From the NCBI GenBank assembly GCA_016235345.1, contig JACRLG010000023.1:275479-336734 (forward strand): DNA of 61,256 nt, in the 5' to 3' direction. The stretch is from Deltaproteobacteria bacterium (lineage in GTDB: Bacteria > Desulfobacterota > Desulfobacteria > Desulfobacterales > Desulfatibacillaceae). Shown piece by piece: positions 17,693 through 61,256 of this stretch; positions within the stretch are counted from its first letter, which is position 1, and every line of letters starts with the position of its first letter. Under the pieces are notes generated by a model. It was not told the origin of the DNA, made no database searches, and saw only the letters and a list, made by a program, of their open reading frames with translations. A program made the position numbers and the translations under genes.

Positions 17693-19741
17693 TCACTTGA
17701 AAATCCCCGCCAGATCCGGGTCTTCCTTGGCCTGGGCCGCGTATGAGGGCTTGAGCCCCACGGCCTTGGCCAGCACTCTTTCAGCCTCGCCGGTTCTTCC
17801 CTGGCGGGCCAGGACGCAGGCCAGGTTGTACAGCACGGGCGCGGGCTCCGCCCCAAGGGCAAGGGCGCGGCCAAGATCGGATTCGGCTTCGGAAAGCCGC
17901 GAAAGGGCCGCAAGGGAAAGCCCCCGGCCCGCGCGGGCTTCGCCGTCCATGGGGTTTCGGGCCAGGGCTTCGTCGAAGACAGACAGCGCCTCTTCCGGCT
18001 CGTTCATGGTGACAAGGAGCATCCCCAGGTTGCAGCGGGCCAGGGTCAGGGAAGGATCGAGCGAAAGGGCGCGGCGAAGGTCGGCAAGGGCCTCCGGGAG
18101 GCGTCCCAGGGAGCGGAGGCTTTCGGCCCGGTTATAGAGGGCCACGGCGTTATTCGGATTGATTTCAAGGGCCTTGCCGTACAGGGAAAGGGCCTCGTCG
18201 TGATTTCCCCTTTTGGCCGCGCCGGTTCCCAGGGCGTTATAGGGTACATCGAAGGTGCTTTCGATGTTTCGGGGCACGAAGGAATACGGCCAGTAAACGC
18301 CAAGCGCCACCACGGCCAAAACCGCGCATGAAGCCCCAGGCAGCAGACGGCGGCGGTGCCTTAAGGCGTCGGGAAGGCCCGTCAGAAAAACGCCGCCCGT
18401 GGCGCACAAAAGGGGCAGGATGGGAAGCCTGTAGCGGGAGGCCACGTGAAAGGCGATCACCGAGCCTGCGTAAACCGCGAAAAACAGGGCAGGAACGAAA
18501 AATCTCCGGCGATCCGGCCAAAGCATGACGAAGCCCGCGAGCCCCAGGCAGAGAAGCAGCCCGGAGCCTACGAAAAGCGCCCTCAGTACGGGAAAACGGT
18601 GGCGGGCGAAGTCGAAGGAGTAGTTGTCGGCGATTTCCAAGGCCGAGAAAAACATTGCGGCCTTTCTGAGCAGAAGGCGCGAGGTGTCGCCCGGGTGGTC
18701 AATCACGTAATCGAGGCCCCGGCGGAGATAGAAGCGTGAGACATCAGAGGATTTCATGTGCGTCCGCCCCGAAAGGCGTTCGGCCTCGCGCCTGAAATCC
18801 TCCTCCTCGAACTCCGGCACAAGACGCACGTTTTCCGGGTTTTCAAAGGCCCCTTTCGATTCCGGCCCGTTTCCGTAGTAGAAATTCTGCCCTCCCTGGC
18901 TTGTGAGAAGCACGAAATCGCCCTCGGCAAGATAATTGTGGATGCTTGCGGGCGACACCGCCGCGAAAAAGCCTGCTGCGTAGAAGATGGCCGGGATGAG
19001 CCTGCTGGCGGTCGGCCCTTTTGCCGCAAAAACCAGCCACACGCAGAAAACCGGCACGAAAAGAAGCAGATTGGCCCGTGTGAGGGCGGCAAGGCCCAGA
19101 AAAACGCCCGCCAAAAGCGACATCCTGGCGGAAGGGCTTTTCCCCGCCTTTAGGGCCGCGTAAAGGGCTGTGGAAACAAGGAGGATTCCAAGGGGCTCCT
19201 TGCCCAGAATTCCGTCGTAAAACAGAAAGAGCCCGCAGAGGATATGAAGAAGGGCCGCCGCGATTCCGGCCCGCCTTCCGCCGAGTTCCCGCCCGATTCC
19301 GTATATCAGGACCGTTGAAACGCTGGACAGGATAACGTTGAAAAGCCGCGCCGTCAGAATCGACTGCCCGAAAACGGAATACAGCAGGGCCAGGATGTAG
19401 GGGTAGAGGCCATCCTGGTAAAAGGCGCGTGAGGCGATGAGCTTTCCGCCCATTATTTCCAAGGCCTTTTCATGGTAGGCCTCGGAGTCTATCACAAGGG
19501 TCGAAAAATAGTCGTCGTTACGCAGAATAAAAAGGTAAATAAGCCTGAGGGCAAGGCTTGCGCAGAAAAGGATAAAGGGGTAACTAAGATGAGGCGGGAG
19601 CCGAAAATACCGAAGGGCGACCCCGGAGGGCGGAGCGATAGGCCCCCCCGGCCCTTTTCCGGCGGCGTTCCCTGAAACCGGCATCTTATCTTTTTTCGGG
19701 CGACGGCTCATGGCGTTTATCGTAACCGTTCGGAAAGGCAT
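17693..19741 (-). CDS. GT-C glycosyltransferase-like membrane protein with C-terminal TPRs
   Basis: 682 residues. After a basic, Pro/Gly-rich cytoplasmic N-terminus, about ten hydrophobic segments cover residues ~50-500. The first extracytoplasmic loop contains RNDDYF and SEAYHEKA, placing acidic residues where PMT/ArnT-type GT-C enzymes keep their catalytic Asp/Glu. Residues ~505-680 hold about five TPR units (for example NPNNAVALYNRAESLRSLGR). It probably transfers a sugar from a polyprenyl carrier to a surface or periplasmic acceptor. It differs from the three TMTC-like paralogues at 55-60 kb but shares the architecture. Divergent from the radical SAM gene, with 11 nt between starts. A start ten codons in is possible. 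Confidence 0.7.
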   Translation of the reverse strand: MPFRTVTINAMSRRPKKDKMPVSGNAAGKGPGGPIAPPSGVALRYFRLPPHLSYPFILFCASLALRLIYLFILRNDDYFSTLVIDSEAYHEKALEIMGGKLIASRAFYQDGLYPYILALLYSVFGQSILTARLFNVILSSVSTVLIYGIGRELGGRRAGIAAALLHILCGLFLFYDGILGKEPLGILLVSTALYAALKAGKSPSARMSLLAGVFLGLAALTRANLLLFVPVFCVWLVFAAKGPTASRLIPAIFYAAGFFAAVSPASIHNYLAEGDFVLLTSQGGQNFYYGNGPESKGAFENPENVRLVPEFEEEDFRREAERLSGRTHMKSSDVSRFYLRRGLDYVIDHPGDTSRLLLRKAAMFFSALEIADNYSFDFARHRFPVLRALFVGSGLLLCLGLAGFVMLWPDRRRFFVPALFFAVYAGSVIAFHVASRYRLPILPLLCATGGVFLTGLPDALRHRRRLLPGASCAVLAVVALGVYWPYSFVPRNIESTFDVPYNALGTGAAKRGNHDEALSLYGKALEINPNNAVALYNRAESLRSLGRLPEALADLRRALSLDPSLTLARCNLGMLLVTMNEPEEALSVFDEALARNPMDGEARAGRGLSLAALSRLSEAESDLGRALALGAEPAPVLYNLACVLARQGRTGEAERVLAKAVGLKPSYAAQAKEDPDLAGIFK

Positions 19742-54101: not shown

Positions 54102-54439
54102 TGGCAACCTTCCCCTTGAATTTTTCTTCATCAAAAGTCGTGGGATATCGAGGTGTTGTGGCGCGTCTTGGGCTTGGCCCGTTGTTCAGGGACGCCACAG
54201 GCCGGAGACTATCCTGCCGACCCGCCGAAAACCGGGAAGACGCCGAACACGTTGTAATTGTAAGGCTTATCTCTTACGGAAAAAAGAGCGGCGCGTATCT
54301 CGACAGCCTCATCGTGCGCCAGGGCGAACTGCACGGGCTTTTGCGGCGGCCTGGTGTGCCCGCCGACAGGCCGAAAAGTGCCCTGGCGGTTTCCGGCAAA
54401 AAAGCCTTTGATTTATCTTTCCTCCAGAATGTCCTTTAA
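54080..54439 (+). other. Possible gene remnant, low confidence
   Basis: The plus-strand frame stays open for about 120 codons. It begins inside hairpin relative H and its last 27 bases overlap the YkgJ gene. From ~54140 codon use is close to that of neighbouring genes (AENREDAEHVVIVRLISYG, SGAYLDSLIVRQGELHGLL). No homologous family recognised and no ribosome site. It may be the tail of a decayed gene or chance. Confidence 0.2.
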
Positions 54440-55054
54440 GGCCCTGACCACATTTCTCAACTCATCCTGGTGTTCGGGCGGGATAAGGAAGCCCGGCATG
54501 GGCCTGTTGTGAAGAAGTTCTTCCCCGCCGCTTTTGCCCTCCACGAGAGCCATCATCCCCACGAGGTTTCCCGATCTTCCGGAAGAATCCAGATGCTCAA
54601 CGGCCTGCATGAAAACCTGGTTCAGGGACATGTCGAGCGGGCTTATCTCGGCCCCCTCCCGGCTGTCGCTGCACGACGTGCGGGAGAACATCACCCGGCA
54701 GGCCAGGGGCCGGGCGGGGTAGGCCAGGCATAGGTCGTCCGACAGAAGCGGGCAGGCCCCCACCGGCGAGTCCTCGTCCTCAGGGGGGGAGGGCCGCCTG
54801 CAAAGGGTGTCCAGAACGAGCCCGTTTACGGTGTATGCGGGCCGCCAGGAAATCCGGGCGCTTCTTATGCGCTGTCGGGCCTCCTCGTTTCCGGCCAGGT
54901 ATTCGGCAAGGTACCGGGCCTCAAGGGTGGTGAGGCTCAGGTGATCCGTGCAGCACAGGGCGCAGCCCTTTTGGCAGACAAGGGGAAGGCTTCCGGTCTC
55001 GGAATCGAAAAGGGCGTATATTGTCCTCAGTTTATCGAAAGTCGGGCTGTTCAA
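54413..55054 (-). CDS. YkgJ-family cysteine-cluster protein
   Basis: 213 residues starting with TTG; TTGA overlaps the stop of the upstream TMTC-like gene, and no earlier Met exists. The Cys pattern CQKGCALCC near residue 28, then CRR...CPLL..CLAYPARPLACR, is that of the YkgJ/CxxCxxCC family, thought to bind zinc or an Fe-S cluster. Reaction unknown. Translational coupling to the glycan-type membrane proteins upstream puts it in the same operon and suggests a role with them. Confidence 0.8.
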   Translation of the reverse strand: MNSPTFDKLRTIYALFDSETGSLPLVCQKGCALCCTDHLSLTTLEARYLAEYLAGNEEARQRIRSARISWRPAYTVNGLVLDTLCRRPSPPEDEDSPVGACPLLSDDLCLAYPARPLACRVMFSRTSCSDSREGAEISPLDMSLNQVFMQAVEHLDSSGRSGNLVGMMALVEGKSGGEELLHNRPMPGFLIPPEHQDELRNVVRALKDILEER

Positions 55055-56742
55055 CCTGATGTTTCCTTTTGTGATGTTTCGACAGATGAAGGCTCTTCTC
55101 CGGTATTCTGCCCGTTGGGGCCTCTCCGGGCCTTTTGGAGATTCTGCATGATCTGCGGGTTTCCCGGATCGAGGCGAAGGGCGGTTTCAAAGCTTTTTAC
55201 GCCGTCATCCCATGAGCCGCTCAGGCACTGGCTGATTCCAAGGCTCAGCCAGATCCGCCAGAACCCGGGCGCAAGGCGGGTCGCCTTGATATAGTACTCC
55301 ACGGCTTCCCTGTGCCTGTTCTGCATGGCGAGCGATTTTCCAACGTTGTAGTATGCCGTGGTGTAGCGGCTGTCAATGGCGATTGCCTTTTTGTACCTTG
55401 CCATGCCTCCCAGAAGGTCGCCCTGGTCGGATATTATCACTCCGAGGTTTTCCTGGGCCCTTGGGTTGTCGGGCCTTTTTTCGGCGGTGTCCATCCAGAT
55501 GGTGTACCAGTCCTTGTAATCGAGGTTTCGCACAAAGGCGGTGCAGGCAAGGGCCAGGGCCGCGATGGAGGCCGCCGCGAACAGCCCGATGGCGGCTTTC
55601 CTGCCCCTTTTGAGGACGAACGAAGCTGCGGCCACGGCCACGGTTGCCACGATGGCCGCCAGGGGCAGGTACATCCGGTACTCCACGGCGGGCGTGGTTA
55701 GGGCGATTATGGAGGACGACGGGGCCAGGATGGTGAAGAAGGCGACGCCCGCGAAGGAGGCCGGATGCCTCTTGTAAAGCCCGAAGGCCGTGGCCAGGAA
55801 ACCCGCTGCCAGGACCAGGGCGTAGGGTATGAAGCCAAGGCCCCTTTCGATGGGCCACCAGTAGTCGAAAACAAGGGGATTGGGCCAGAAGGCCAGCTTT
55901 AAGTAATGGATCAGGACTTCCGGCTCGGTTCTGAAATAGTTCCAGCGGTTCAAGTCAAAGTCGTAAAAAAGCGAGTTGCCCGTGGGCTTGGCCACTGCCT
56001 GGAAATACGCGAAAATCAGTATCCCCGCAAGAAAGGCGGCGTAGATGGGGGCCGAGCGCCTTAGGGTGTCTTTAAGCGGACGGGGCGCGAAGAGGAACTG
56101 CCAGGCCGCGACCACCACCGGAGCCGTGACCAGTATCTCCTTGGATCCGAGGCCCAGGAAAAAGGCCGGTATGGCCACGAGCCATCCCCAAAGCGGCCTT
56201 TTGCCGAAGCTGGCCAGGGCCGCGCCGTAAAGGGTGGCGATGAAAAAGAGCCCGGCCATGGATTCGCATCGCTGGGACAGGTAGGTCACCGCCTGGGTGT
56301 GAATCGGGTGAACCGCCCATAAAAGGGCCGTGAAAAAGGCGATGGGAGTTTCATGCCCCCCGAACCGGCCCTTTAACGAGGGCGACCTTGAAAGGGTGAG
56401 CAAGACCAGCGCAAAAAGGGCCAGGGCGCTTGCCGCGTGAATCAGGATGCTGAGAATATGGTAGCCCGTCACCGAATCGCCGCCAAGGGCGTGGTTGATG
56501 GCAAAGGAGAGCCTTATTGTGGGGCGGTTGACGAAGCCGGTTCCGTCGGAGGCTCCGAAAATGGGGAAGATGTTTCTTATTCCCTGGTTTTCGACGATGT
56601 TGGCGAAATCATCGTGAAGAAAGGGCGCGTGAAGGGTGTTGGAATATACAAGCCCCACCACGGCCACCAGAATAGCGGCCCAGATCGGGATGTTGGAGGA
56701 TGCCCCGGGCGCAACGGGAGCGGGGGAAGGATTTTTGCTCAT
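55051..56742 (-). CDS. TMTC-like GT-C membrane protein with C-terminal TPRs (paralogue 3)
   Basis: 563 residues. Short cytoplasmic N-terminus, helix 1, then the loop HDDFANIVENQGIRN with a catalytic-type acidic pair (HDD), as in the TMTC/PMT type of GT-C mannosyltransferases. About ten more helices follow, with SQRCESMAGLF and the repeated FDYWWPIERGLGFIPY. Residues ~440-545 hold three or four TPRs. Overlaps its neighbours on both sides by 4 nt (ATGA and TTGA). It should glycosylate exported proteins or glycolipids from a lipid-linked donor. Closely related to the next two genes. Confidence 0.78.
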   Translation of the reverse strand: MSKNPSPAPVAPGASSNIPIWAAILVAVVGLVYSNTLHAPFLHDDFANIVENQGIRNIFPIFGASDGTGFVNRPTIRLSFAINHALGGDSVTGYHILSILIHAASALALFALVLLTLSRSPSLKGRFGGHETPIAFFTALLWAVHPIHTQAVTYLSQRCESMAGLFFIATLYGAALASFGKRPLWGWLVAIPAFFLGLGSKEILVTAPVVVAAWQFLFAPRPLKDTLRRSAPIYAAFLAGILIFAYFQAVAKPTGNSLFYDFDLNRWNYFRTEPEVLIHYLKLAFWPNPLVFDYWWPIERGLGFIPYALVLAAGFLATAFGLYKRHPASFAGVAFFTILAPSSSIIALTTPAVEYRMYLPLAAIVATVAVAAASFVLKRGRKAAIGLFAAASIAALALACTAFVRNLDYKDWYTIWMDTAEKRPDNPRAQENLGVIISDQGDLLGGMARYKKAIAIDSRYTTAYYNVGKSLAMQNRHREAVEYYIKATRLAPGFWRIWLSLGISQCLSGSWDDGVKSFETALRLDPGNPQIMQNLQKARRGPNGQNTGEEPSSVETSQKETSG

Positions 56743-58391
56743 GGTTTCCAGTACTCCGCTTGCCTGCTTTTGAGCACGCTTTCGAGATAGAGATTCAAGG
56801 TTTCGTCATTCGGATTTATGCGCCGGGCCTTTCTCAGGCTTAGAATGCCCTCGTCGAAAAGCCCGTTCCTGCACTGGGCCACCCCCAGCCCCTTCCAGGT
56901 CATCCAGTGATGCGGGGCCAGCCTGACTGCGTCAAGGTAGTATTTAAGGGCTTCCTGGGGCCTGTTCTGCATCAAAAGGAGCCTTCCGATGTTGTAGTAC
57001 GCCGAGGTGAAGTTCTTGTCTATGGTGATTATTTCCCTGAACTGGTCTATGGCCCCGAAATAATCCCCCTTCATGGATATGGCGAGCCCAAGGCCTTCCC
57101 TGGCGCGGGGGTTTTGTGGCCGTTTCGCAACGGTATCGTTCCAGAGCGTGTATGCGTCCCTGTAATCGAGATTCCGCGTAAAAGAGGCGGCGGCCAGAGC
57201 TATTGCAAGGATTGCGGCAAAAATTCCGAGCGCGGGAAGGGCCTTCCTTCCCCGGTTTATGGCAAAAACACCCAGCATGACCGCGAGGCTGGAACAAATG
57301 GCGGCAAGGGGAAGGTACATGCGGTATTCCGCCGCCGTGGTGGTAAGGGCCACGATGGAGGAGGAAGGGGCCAGTATGGAGAAAAAACAGACCCCCGCGA
57401 AGGAGGCCGGATGCCTCTTAAAAAGTCCCCAGACAGTGGCGATGAAACCCGCGCCCAGAACCAGGGCGTAGGGTATGAAGCCAAGGCCCTTTTCGATGGG
57501 CCACCAGTAGTCGAAAACAAGGGGGCGGGGCCAGAAGGCCAGCTTCAGGTAATGGACCAGGACTGCTGGCTGGGTCATAGCGTAGTTCAGCCGGTTCAAG
57601 TCATAGGCATAGGCTGACTTGTAAAATTTTGTTTCGGAAGAAATAAGACTGTAAGCCAGTATCAGCACTCCTGCAAAAAAGGCCGCGTAAACCGGGGCCG
57701 AGCGCCAAAGGGCGCTTTTGAACGGACGGGGCGCGAAGAGAAACTGCCAGGCGGCGACAACCACCGGGGCCGTGACCAGTATCTCCTTGGTTCCGAGGCC
57801 CAGGAAAAAGGCCGGTATGGCCACCATCCATCCCCAAAGCGGCCTTTTGCCCAGGCTGGCCAGGGCCGCGCCGTAGAGGGTGGTGATGTAAAAAAACCCG
57901 GCCATTGATTCGCATCGCTGGGACAGGTATGTCACGGCCTGGGTATTGAGGGGATGGACTCCCCACAGGAGGGCCGCGAAAAAAGCCAGAGGCGTTGCGT
58001 GAGCCCTCAGGCGGCTTCCGAAAGCCGGGGACATGGAAAGGGTGAGCCTTACCAGCGCGAAAAGGGCCAGGGCGCTTGCCGCGTGAATGAGGATGTTCAG
58101 CAGATGGTAGCCCGTAACGGACTCCCCGCCCAGGGCGTAATTGACGGCAAAGGAGAGCCTGATCACCGGGCGGTTGATGAAACCCGTGGCGTCGGCTGCG
58201 CCGAAAAGGGGAAATATCCGCCGGATTCCCGGATTTTCCACTATGTTGGCGAAATCGTCGTGGAGAAAGGGCACGTTAAGGGTGTTGGAGTAAACAAGGC
58301 CCACCACGGCCACCAGGACCGCCGCCCATATGGCAAGGTTGGAGGATTCCCCGGGGCGGTGGGGGACATCGTCTGAGTCGATCCGTATCAT
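56739..58391 (-). CDS. TMTC-like GT-C membrane protein with C-terminal TPRs (paralogue 2)
   Basis: 550 residues with the same layout: HDDFANIVENPGIRR in the first loop, SQRCESMAGFF, FDYWWPIEKGLGFIPY, KRHPASFAGV, and C-terminal TPRs (~430-540). ATGA overlap with paralogue 3 downstream and a 3 nt gap from paralogue 1 upstream. Long near-identical stretches with both neighbours show recent tandem duplication; the middle loop (about residues 235-260) is the most divergent. Confidence 0.78.
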   Translation of the reverse strand: MIRIDSDDVPHRPGESSNLAIWAAVLVAVVGLVYSNTLNVPFLHDDFANIVENPGIRRIFPLFGAADATGFINRPVIRLSFAVNYALGGESVTGYHLLNILIHAASALALFALVRLTLSMSPAFGSRLRAHATPLAFFAALLWGVHPLNTQAVTYLSQRCESMAGFFYITTLYGAALASLGKRPLWGWMVAIPAFFLGLGTKEILVTAPVVVAAWQFLFAPRPFKSALWRSAPVYAAFFAGVLILAYSLISSETKFYKSAYAYDLNRLNYAMTQPAVLVHYLKLAFWPRPLVFDYWWPIEKGLGFIPYALVLGAGFIATVWGLFKRHPASFAGVCFFSILAPSSSIVALTTTAAEYRMYLPLAAICSSLAVMLGVFAINRGRKALPALGIFAAILAIALAAASFTRNLDYRDAYTLWNDTVAKRPQNPRAREGLGLAISMKGDYFGAIDQFREIITIDKNFTSAYYNIGRLLLMQNRPQEALKYYLDAVRLAPHHWMTWKGLGVAQCRNGLFDEGILSLRKARRINPNDETLNLYLESVLKSRQAEYWKP

Positions 58392-58394
58392 TCT

Positions 58395-60041
58395 TCAGGG
58401 TTCCTGATCGCCTTCCGGCCCTTTCCGGGCCTTGTCGAGCTTGAAGATGGTGTCCGTGTTTCCGGGGTTTAGGCTAAGGGCGGTTTCAAGGCTTTTCACT
58501 CCCTCGTCCCAGAATCCCGCCATGCACTGGGCTACTCCCATGTAAGACCACGTGCGCCAGTGGGTCGGCCACAGTTTGATCCCGATGCGGTAATATTTTA
58601 TGGCCTCCGAAGGCCTGTTCTGCATCACCAGCACCCTGCCCATGTTGCAGTAGGCCGTGGTGTAGAGCCTGTCTATTGCAATGGCCCGGTTGAAGCGGGT
58701 AACGGCTCCCAGAAGATCGCCCTGGTCGGCCAGGGCCACCCCCAGGTTGTCATGGGCGCGGGGGTTTAAGGGCGCTTTCGAGACGGTGTCCGCCCACAGG
58801 GCGTAAGAGTCCCGGTAATCTGTGTTTCTTATAAAGGTGCATAAAGCAAGGGCAAGGACTATGACCGACGCGGCGATCCCAAGACCTGTGGCCGCCTTCC
58901 GGCCCCTTTTGAGGGCGAAAGACGCCGCCGCCACGGCCACCACTGCGGCAATTGCCGCAAGGGGAAGGTACATGCGGTATTCCGCTGCCGGGGTGTTGAG
59001 GGCAATTACGGAAGAGGACGGGGCCAGAACGGCGAAAAACGCCACCCCTGCAAACGAGGCCGGATGCCTCTTATAAAGGCCGATTACCGTTGCGATGAAA
59101 CCGGCCACGAGGAGCGCGGCGTAGGGTATGAAGCCAAGGCCCTTTTCGATTGGCCACCAGTAATCGAAACAAAGGCCCTTTGGCCAGAAGGCCAGCTTAA
59201 GATAACGGACCAGCACTTCGGGCTGGGTTTTCGCGTAATTTACCGGGTTCAAGTCAAATTCATAAAAGGGCTTATGGACAACCGGATTTGAAAATATCTG
59301 GTTAAAGGCGAATATCGATATCCCCGCAGCAAAGGCCGCGTAGAGTGGGGCCGAGCGCCTGAGTGTTTCCCTGAAAGGCGCGGGCGTGAAGATGAACTGC
59401 CAGGCGGCGACAATCACCGGGGCCGTGATCAGTATCTCCTTGGTTCCGAGGCCCAGGAAAAAGGCCGGTATGGCGACAAGGAATCCCAAAATAGGCTTTT
59501 TGCCGAAAGAGGACAGGGCTGCGCCGTAAAGGGTGAGAAGGTAAAAGAGGCCCGCCATTGATTCGCATCGCTGGACTATGTAGGTTACCGCCATTGTATT
59601 CAAGGGGTGCGCACCCCACAGGAGGGCCGCGAAAAAAGCGACAGGCGTCGCCTTATCGGCCAATCGCCCCGAAAAGGCCGGGGAGCGGGCTATCGTCAGG
59701 CGGATCAGGGCGAAAAGCGTAAGGGCAGAGGCAATGTGGATAAATATGTTCGCAAGGTGGTAGCCGGTCACCGAAAGGCCGCCTGCCGCGTAATTGAGCG
59801 AAAAGGAGAGTTCGGCTATGGGGCGGTATAAGAGGCTGTATACGCCGGACGAGCCGAAAATCGGGAAAATATGCTGTATTCCGGGATTCTCGACAATATT
59901 GGCCAGATCGTCATGAAGAAAGGGCACATTAAGGGTGTTGGAATAGGCAAGCCCTATAACCGCCGCCAGCACCGCAGCCCAGATTGAAAGGTCCGAGGAT
60001 TCTTTGGGAAGGTCGGGCGCAGGCGGGGATTTTTTTTTCAT
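58395..60041 (-). CDS. TMTC-like GT-C membrane protein with C-terminal TPRs (paralogue 1)
   Basis: 548 residues, first gene of the operon. HDDLANIVENPGIQH, VQRCESMAGLF (Val where the others have Ser) and FDYWWPIEKGLGFIPY are conserved, with TPRs at ~430-535. A poor ribosome site precedes the ATG. The three copies in a row could act on different acceptors or form a hetero-oligomer. Confidence 0.78.
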   Translation of the reverse strand: MKKKSPPAPDLPKESSDLSIWAAVLAAVIGLAYSNTLNVPFLHDDLANIVENPGIQHIFPIFGSSGVYSLLYRPIAELSFSLNYAAGGLSVTGYHLANIFIHIASALTLFALIRLTIARSPAFSGRLADKATPVAFFAALLWGAHPLNTMAVTYIVQRCESMAGLFYLLTLYGAALSSFGKKPILGFLVAIPAFFLGLGTKEILITAPVIVAAWQFIFTPAPFRETLRRSAPLYAAFAAGISIFAFNQIFSNPVVHKPFYEFDLNPVNYAKTQPEVLVRYLKLAFWPKGLCFDYWWPIEKGLGFIPYAALLVAGFIATVIGLYKRHPASFAGVAFFAVLAPSSSVIALNTPAAEYRMYLPLAAIAAVVAVAAASFALKRGRKAATGLGIAASVIVLALALCTFIRNTDYRDSYALWADTVSKAPLNPRAHDNLGVALADQGDLLGAVTRFNRAIAIDRLYTTAYCNMGRVLVMQNRPSEAIKYYRIGIKLWPTHWRTWSYMGVAQCMAGFWDEGVKSLETALSLNPGNTDTIFKLDKARKGPEGDQEP

Positions 60042-60103
60042 TGTTCAAAATCTTTGCGCTGTTTTTTTCCGCATGGGCCGCTGGAAGGAAGCCGCCCGAA
60101 AGC

Positions 60104-60139
60104 AAAACGGACCGGCTCCTTTGGGAACCGGTCCGTTTT
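60104..60139. terminator. Bidirectional terminator after the DUF6160 gene
   Basis: AAAACGGACCGG and CCGGTCCGTTTT form a 12 bp stem flanked by A and T runs. It lies 37 nt after the DUF6160 stop. A near copy follows the second DUF6160 gene. Confidence 0.85.
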
Positions 60140-60175
60140 CGTGCTTATGCTTTAACACCCGAAATCAGATGACGA

Positions 60176-60652
60176 TTAGGGATGCGCCCTGATGTAGAGC
60201 GTGCCGGGGGAGAAGACGACGCCGGTGACGATGAGCTCGCCAAGTCTTTCGGCATCCGCGCCCACGCCGGAGGTGTCGCCAACATAGATGCCGCCGACAG
60301 CCAGGGTGCCGGTCAGCATGCCGGGGCCAAGGGGATCGATCCGCAGGTAGGAGCCGGTGCCCATGCCCAGAGCGTTGGTGGTGTCAGTGAAGATGTCGAC
60401 GTCGATTCCGGTGTTGATGCCGGGGAGGGTCAAGCTGTTCAGCACCAACCAGCCGGCTGCGGTTGCGCCGGCAAAGCCGTCAGCATCGCCCCACGCAAGG
60501 CGGGTGGCGGTCAGGCTGTTGCCCTGGGCGATGATGGTGATACCGGTCTGGCCTTTTACGGTCTGAAGGTCTTTCTTGGACATGGCTGACATGCCCGCCA
60601 TTGCCACTGCCGGAATCAGAAGGATTGCCAGCACTATCATAAGCTTCTTCAT
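60176..60652 (-). CDS. DUF6160-like secreted protein
   Basis: 158 residues with GGGGAGG ahead of the ATG. Signal peptide ending at AMAG. The mature start SAMSKKDLQTVKGQTGITI matches the KxLxxVxGQxGITI start of DUF6160 proteins, which continue as a beta-rich domain (SYLRIDPLGPGMLTGTLAVGGI). Function unknown; probably at the cell surface or in the periplasm. It is followed by a terminator and, upstream, by a second copy of the gene. Confidence 0.8.
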   Translation of the reverse strand: MKKLMIVLAILLIPAVAMAGMSAMSKKDLQTVKGQTGITIIAQGNSLTATRLAWGDADGFAGATAAGWLVLNSLTLPGINTGIDVDIFTDTTNALGMGTGSYLRIDPLGPGMLTGTLAVGGIYVGDTSGVGADAERLGELIVTGVVFSPGTLYIRAHP

Positions 60653-60942
60653 TTTCCATACCTCCCCTAAAAATGATGGACCATGTAATGCGACCGAAGG
60701 AACCGTTCCAGCGGCCAGTTAGAAGCGGAGGCTTGACCGGGCTTTCGCTCCCTGCCCGAACACCCTGGCGGGGGGATGGCGCACAAGTGAACGAAGGCTT
60801 TGAGGTAAACCCCACACCGGCAAAAAAAGCGTCCGTAAAGGTGCCAGGACCCGCTGTGCCATAGCGGTTCCTCTTCATGGTTTTTTTGCGCCGGGCTTCA
60901 TAAAAATCGGGAGACTGCGATAGTGAGATGATCTGGAGTAAA

Positions 60943-60972
60943 TGTCTACAGGTTTTGCCTGCTATTTGTCAA
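60943..60972 (-). promoter_or_regulatory. Sigma-70 promoter for the DUF6160 gene
   Basis: On the minus strand TTGACA, an 18 nt spacer, then TAGACA, giving a leader of about 290 nt. No riboswitch core recognised in that leader. Confidence 0.5.
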
Positions 60973-61049
60973 TCTGAATTTTTTTAATGGCCAATATTGT
61001 TAAGGCGGAAAAATGTTTGCGGAGGACCTGGATGGTAATATCCAAAAGC

Positions 61050-61085
61050 AAAACGGACCGGCCCCCAAGGGAGTCGGTCCGTTTT
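61050..61085. terminator. Bidirectional terminator after the second DUF6160 gene
   Basis: AAAACGGACCG pairs with CGGTCCGTTTT. Loop bases differ from the first copy (60104-60139) but stem and flanks are the same, so gene and terminator were duplicated together. Confidence 0.8.
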
Positions 61086-61121
61086 AATGCTTATACTGCA
61101 ACACCCGTTTTCAGACGACGA

Positions 61122-61256
61122 TTAGTCGTGCGCCCGAATGTAGAGCGTGCCGGGGGAGAAGACGACGCCGGTGACGATGAGCTCGCCAAGTCTTTCGGCA
61201 TCCGCGCCCACGCCGGAGGTGTCGCCAACATAGATGCCGCCGACAGCCAGGGTGCC
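61122..61256 (-). CDS. DUF6160-like secreted protein, second copy (5' part outside window)
   Basis: Only the last 44 codons and stop are present. They match the end of the first copy almost base for base; differences sit at the very end (YIRAHD instead of YIRAHP). The near identity points to a recent tandem duplication or gene conversion. The start lies beyond the right edge. Confidence 0.8.
   Translation of the reverse strand, partial: GTLAVGGIYVGDTSGVGADAERLGELIVTGVVFSPGTLYIRAHD

Follow-up and report, generated by a model that had tools for sequence, protein, structure and literature searches.

What would a bacterium do with three tandem genes for membrane proteins that end in tetratricopeptide repeats (TPRs), lying beside a gene for a putative fiber subunit? 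The question is raised by a 61,256-nucleotide (nt) stretch of a Deltaproteobacteria bacterium genome of the Desulfatibacillaceae (assembly GCA_016235345.1, contig JACRLG010000023.1, positions 275,479 to 336,734), referred to here as the window. On its minus strand, which also carries the neighboring genes discussed below, lie copy 1 (58395..60041; 548 residues, with the membrane domain at approximately residues 18-404 and the TPRs at approximately 408-540), copy 2 (56739..58391; 550 residues), and copy 3 (55051..56742; 563 residues), the last two delimited from their open reading frames and TPR matches. Open reading frames combined with reading of the junctions, where copy 2 begins after a 3-nt gap from copy 1 and runs into copy 3 with a 4-nt ATGA overlap, confirm the tandem triplet of 548- to 563-codon genes proposed by a first-pass annotation of the same DNA. 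The present analysis, which is based on sequence, suggests that the three proteins are most likely GT-C glycosyltransferases with a TMTC-like plan. It further suggests, with a probability that we put at roughly 0.5, that they are periplasm-facing transferases for exported proteins, with the FilA-like DUF6160 proteins encoded nearby as the best local candidate acceptors.

The TMTC-like GT-C/TPR architecture, with its catalytic residues kept, is supported by residue conservation, motifs, and profile comparison. The first-loop acidic pair, which the first-pass annotation had described in all three proteins, is indeed retained in each, as D44-D45 in copy 1 (59907..59912) and copy 3 (56608..56613) and as D45-D46 in copy 2 (58254..58259), and Pfam TPR matches in all three copies likewise bear out the C-terminal TPRs. 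The catalytic residues are conserved on alignment: among 49 of the 58 unique open reading frames of the protein family (short frames and named rows were dropped), D44 is found in 47 and D45 in 46, with two fragment rows lacking the loop and one row having E for D45. H145, R158, and K201 are kept in 48 of the 49 members and P146 in all 49; D44, R73, H102, H145, P146, K201, and R356, together with others, are invariant in 31 members. Seven motifs, M1-M7, are defined for TMTC proteins in PMC7801869. M1 (DD) is the acidic pair itself, and M4 is kept as KExxxT, the T falling five residues after the K. The remaining motifs are altered: only RP is kept of M2, M3 reads RxE in place of RxD and M5 DY in place of DW, only the first P of M6 survives (PxxP becoming PSSS), and M7 (ERxxY) has its E and Y in register with the R shifted by one.

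Judged by published motifs and topology only, as given in PMC7801869, the copies share with TMTC1-4, the animal O-mannosyltransferases, an N-terminal polytopic domain of 11 segments, the DD, KE, D, and R/Y motifs of loops 1, 3, 4, and 5, respectively, and C-terminal TPRs on the noncytoplasmic side; they differ, apart from the altered motifs, in being bacterial and in having no TMTC_DUF1736 match at cut-off. Full-length TMTC-like proteins have already been noted in prokaryotes, including an example from Deltaproteobacteria bacterium DG_8 (PMC7801869), and the triplet belongs to this published kind. As described there, these proteins have the same architecture and come from poorly characterized prokaryotes, one of them deltaproteobacterial; the passage available from that paper is without operon, copy number, or acceptor context. 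We found no characterization of a bacterial TMTC-like protein in the literature.

Profile comparison points in the same direction. With HHalign, a membrane-domain profile (A4) matched a profile of four PMT_2 proteins from the same genome (A7) at 81% probability over 150 of 401 columns (E 1.2e-5) and aligned both the acidic pair and K201, whereas two controls run against other membrane proteins gave 0.1% each; the control proteins were labeled by eye, the two controls share one protein, and A8 merges unrelated proteins. A genome search placed five family paralogues above the PMT_2 (PF13231) cut-off, and a sixth when it was joined with its neighbors. At E up to 0.1, PMT_2 also matched 4 of 40 family rows, the best at 2.1e-5, and single family members matched WsfD and Agl23 weakly. 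A protein elsewhere in the window (17693-19741) combines PMT_2 (58.2 bits, cut-off 26.1) with TPRs. PMT_2 proteins thus resemble the copies in profile over the 150 membrane-domain columns and, in this window example, in joining the domain to TPRs; they differ in that the single window example compared with A4 gives a probability of only 3.9%.

Several results weigh against the GT-C assignment. No Pfam or NCBIfam GT-C model matches any window copy, and for PMT_2 there was no match to the three copies even at E up to 1. HHalign with single PMT_2 proteins was not significant (3.9, 0.3, and 0.3%), and hmmscan of two of the paralogues that pass the PMT_2 cut-off (L015 and L026) returned no PMT_2 at E up to 0.001. 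TMTC_DUF1736 (PF08409) remains below its cut-off genome-wide (best 16.7 bits versus 27) and has no match in the copies, and A4 compared with PDB chains yielded no glycosyltransferase and three weak, unrelated matches. A PDB sequence search with A1 gave TPR matches among the best 60 of 177. The structure models were too weak to bear on the fold: an AF2 model had a pLDDT of 43.6 from the three copies alone and of 61.8 with four more sequences, with low confidence in the catalytic loops. With the low-confidence model, the best 50 of 1088 Foldseek matches and the best 50 of 842 from VIA-align 2 were TPR or helical-repeat proteins, with the membrane domain barely covered by either. Membrane proteins other than sugar transferases, for example flippase-like proteins with only hydrophobicity in common with GT-C enzymes, would account for the copies matching no GT-C model; however, the conservation of motifs across the 49 members and the HHalign match set against low controls make this a very improbable explanation.

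Hydropathy and predicted helices of the N-terminal part fit 11 transmembrane segments, and the short inside loops contain 14 lysines and arginines in 49 residues versus 10 in 142 residues of the outside loops, the two sides having been assigned by hand from the predicted helices. Duplicated GT-C enzymes of this kind would have a cytoplasmic N terminus and about 11 transmembrane helices, with the catalytic loops and the TPR domain in the periplasm. Each copy would take a sugar from a polyprenyl-phosphate donor, possibly a product of GT2 synthases like the ones encoded beside some of the paralogues; the first-loop aspartates would serve catalysis, the TPRs would hold an exported protein acceptor, and the copies may be distinguished less by their chemistry than by their acceptors. 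GT2 genes adjoin paralogues in two Pfam-confirmed cases (L077) and, by eye, at L051, L052, and L054, which would fit donor supply.

Pairwise identity of the three copies is 62, 64, and 66%. The long motifs to which the first-pass annotation had drawn attention are present in all three copies but are not letter-identical throughout: QRCESMAG is common to the three, SQRCESMAGLF is exact in copy 3 only, and copies 1 and 2 both have exact FDYWWPIEKGLGFIPY, where copy 3 has R in place of K. Third-position identity is patchy among the copies and peaks near codons 151-240 and 271-330; for the pair of copies 2 and 3 it is 93% in codons 181-210 and 30-60% in many other 30-codon segments. This pattern probably reflects gene conversion among the copies, which would in part explain the identity of the long motifs. 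Between-copy identity is 45-55% in the TPR part versus 69-74% in the membrane domain. Such a difference would fit different acceptors, but this link is weakened by a mixed trend elsewhere: the TPR part diverges faster in three of five other pairs and the trend is reversed in two, so it is not special to the triplet.

The protein family to which the triplet belongs is very large. A search of the genome with the membrane-domain profile gives 28 matches, of which 27 are listed individually, and each of nine genomes of the bacterial family contains 7-30; of 198 genomes sampled across the phylum, 99 (own genome included) have at least one match, the numbers of matches per genome in that sample being lower bounds. 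Strong GT-C/TPR matches (1e-60) occur in 13 of 40 genomes. Other tandem arrays include one of three genes in this genome (contig C36), one of four matches on G007:C417, and another of three genes on G004:C299. In addition, the 24-kb contig G007:C432 (L126 and L127) has ten GT-C/TPR open-frame matches, two of them probably belonging to a single gene split artificially. The three window copies are monophyletic in a tree (support 100/100), on a long stem, and they group apart from fragments found in a genome of the same genus with support of 91/88 and 92/96, values that are moderate and under the tool's star threshold. That same-genus genome, which includes contig JAKAGN010000394.1 (Deltaproteobacteria bacterium WY2.bin34; all 2,562 compared bases identical), contains one N-terminal and one C-terminal GT-C fragment on two short contigs with other neighbors. 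The two fragments overlap by 57 nt, of which 53 are identical, and this difference between the contigs suggests that at least two copies exist there, tandem or not. Within this family, the triplet represents a lineage-specific expansion in tandem, with patches of apparent gene conversion. A conserved operon was considered and rejected, the same-genus copies being fragmentary on two contigs with other neighbors and the window copies grouping separately. For the family, copies standing alone and scattered, along with other arrays, are largely what was found in this genome and its relatives, a pattern that the first-pass annotation had named as evidence against its suggested multi-acceptor machine.

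The evidence on acceptors centers on the gene immediately upstream of copy 1 (60176..60652), whose product is a DUF6160 protein (PF19657, 37.7 bits, cut-off 27) with a weak match to pilus_FilA (30.4 bits versus an NCBIfam cut-off of 220). FilA is described as a subunit of the Fil pilus in Acinetobacter (PMC11784438 and PMC3498257, in the parts available, which do not mention FilA glycosylation). The DUF6160 protein is 17.4% serine plus threonine, versus a mean of 10.8% (standard deviation 1.8) for 24 other window genes, a comparison in which a 20-residue signal was assumed and the comparison genes were picked by hand. The 3′ part of a second DUF6160 copy (61042..61256), cut by the contig end, has 90% nucleotide identity to 60096-60310; the contig (C23) ends within this copy (60900-61256). 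Elsewhere in the genome, contig C13 (L095:1742-9300) has four DUF6160 matches, three of them above cut-off, adjoining genes for a C39 peptidase (FilB/FapD-like), a FilC/FapF-like protein, and a FilD-like protein. The tested DUF6160 proteins and these C13 genes resemble, weakly, the Fil system (FilA-FilD) of Acinetobacter and the Fap amyloid systems; all matches to Fil proteins, however, fall below the curated NCBIfam cut-offs (on C13, 176.8 versus 475 for FilB, 147.7 versus 630 for FilC, and 304.8 versus 970 for FilD).

DUF6160 proteins are encoded in all nine genomes of the bacterial family and in 8 of 68 other relatives. In the nine genomes, a GT-C/TPR gene occurs no more than 3 kb from 6 of 26 DUF6160 clusters, versus 1.11 expected (Poisson p ~0.001, in a test that treats genomes as independent while two genera supply two cases each, and with the 3-kb limit and the DUF6160 focus chosen after the first cases were seen); the DUF6160 fragment on contig C25 was not counted as a cluster. 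In the multi-gene subset, selected post hoc, the figure is 6 of 12 versus 0.66 expected. Among 18 clusters from the order outside this family, two show such proximity, and these flank a single GT-C pair in G025 on either side. The DUF6160-adjacent transferases of the window, of the g4/g5 arrays, and of G025 are on different branches of the tree, and the association is therefore not simply one inherited locus. On a tree from which the fragment G003:C661 was left out, the adjacency label requires 7 changes (6 forced) versus 13.5 in shuffles, so adjacency is clustered rather than random, and the changes could be either gains or losses. The suggestion of the first-pass annotation that the neighboring DUF6160 proteins are acceptors is strengthened by this excess, and they remain candidates.

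A number of observations weigh against DUF6160 proteins being the acceptors. The expected number of adjacencies was derived from gene counts at E 1e-30, but adjacency was called at E 1e-8; removal of G003:C661 (5.6e-29, cut by a contig end) leaves 5 of 26 (p 0.006), and one case per genus leaves four cases (p 0.03). As far as the contigs reach, 20 of the 26 clusters in the bacterial family have no GT-C gene within 3 kb, and the same holds for 16 of the 18 in the rest of the order; outside the order none of 16 clusters has one within 3 kb, and three of 16 do within 8 kb. In the same-genus genome, none of three clusters is near a GT-C gene, two of them being on contigs of 4-7 kb. Furthermore, a likely terminator separates the window DUF6160 gene from copy 1, and the two are probably on separate transcripts: region 60080-60135 folds at -27.6 kcal/mol (z -3.0) and contains a hairpin followed by UUUU (60108..60135; identified from folding energy), which the terminator scan did not list. 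Together with the pilin-like neighbor of one paralogue described below, the lone DUF6160 clusters and the terminator favor a second explanation, in which the copies are protein transferases for other acceptors, such as pilins or many exported proteins, and proximity to DUF6160 genes is inherited synteny or chance. Because adjacency exceeds expectation and occurs on different branches, we regard this explanation as possible but on the doubtful side.

The pilin-like neighbor is found on contig C15, where a GT-C/TPR paralogue lies between an N_methyl (pilin-like) gene and a GT2 gene (L077:4509-7921). This is a possible pilin glycosylation locus and speaks for a protein acceptor. A pilin motif was, however, present in only 1 of 40 loci scanned, which weighs against exported-protein acceptors.

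A third explanation is that the copies are GT-C transferases for lipid or polysaccharide acceptors, similar to ArnT or Gtr, with TPRs that dock to an envelope assembly complex. Known GT-C families do include the lipid-modifying ArnT (PMC7801869), and most paralogues in the same genome have no obvious acceptor gene alongside, by eye. Sugar genes may also lie close to the triplet. Contig C25 begins inside the 5′ part of a DUF6160 gene (L094:1-482) that is 94% identical to window positions 60501-60982, and it encodes a nucleotidyltransferase, a GDP_Man_Dehyd-type dehydratase, a dTDP-sugar epimerase, methyltransferases, and a GT2 protein. C25 may adjoin the window end, and, given its DUF6160 start, this nucleotide-sugar cluster may lie upstream of the triplet. 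Set against these points are the DUF6160 neighborhood on different branches and the one pilin-like neighbor, and we consider lipid or polysaccharide acceptors rather unlikely.

Protein transferases with DUF6160 proteins as the best local candidates thus remain our preferred explanation. A more specific version of it, which we offer tentatively and consider less likely than the general one, is a dedicated glycosylation of Fil/Fap-type fibers, in which lineage-specific TMTC-like arrays would decorate FilA-like DUF6160 subunits, having been recruited repeatedly out of the very large transferase repertoire and tuned to each acceptor through their TPRs. The DUF6160 association is the part for which we found no precedent in print; in a mainly non-subscription literature, no link between DUF6160 or FilA and GT-C/TPR proteins was recognized. 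Genomes of a bacterial family with up to 30 TMTC-like genes, some of them beside predicted fiber-subunit genes, provide concrete candidate enzyme-acceptor pairs, and such pairs could show what the TMTC-like architecture does outside animals.

Downstream of the triplet lies a gene with a TTG start (54413..55054) for a YkgJ-family CxxCxxCC protein of 213 residues (PF03692, 27.7 bits, cut-off 23). The first-pass annotation had included it as a coupled gene of the operon. The overlap stands, as the stop of copy 3 overlaps the TTG start by 4 nt (TTGA), but the gene itself lies outside the 55051-60041 interval to which the operon had been assigned. That YkgJ and the triplet work as a single modification machine, translationally coupled and dependent on redox chemistry or a metal, would be in keeping with this overlap and with a GT-C gene of the same-genus genome that overlaps a different cysteine-rich gene by 4 nt (CCG, 27.4 bits, cut-off 20.6). 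However, YkgJ orthologues are found in 33 of 40 genomes (own genome included), versus the 13 of 40 with strong GT-C matches. Among 19 relative YkgJ loci fetched, with flanks of up to 1.5 kb, there was no convincing case of a GT-C neighbor, one locus (L122) having a weak GT-C match (E 6.4e-5), and the same-genus YkgJ gene sits on a contig other than those of the GT-C fragments. Since YkgJ is widespread, without convincing adjacency in the relative loci fetched, the link is probably accidental. YkgJ was accordingly rejected as a partner, its proposed role as a functional part of a glycosylation machine is not sustained, and the single-machine explanation, already weakened, is highly improbable; the YkgJ gene probably stands on its own, its position downstream of the triplet being coincidental.

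Two viral_contigs scans gave zero relatives of the copies, a plasmid search gave TPR-only matches among 10 of 17 records, and one genome_contigs scan matched four loci.

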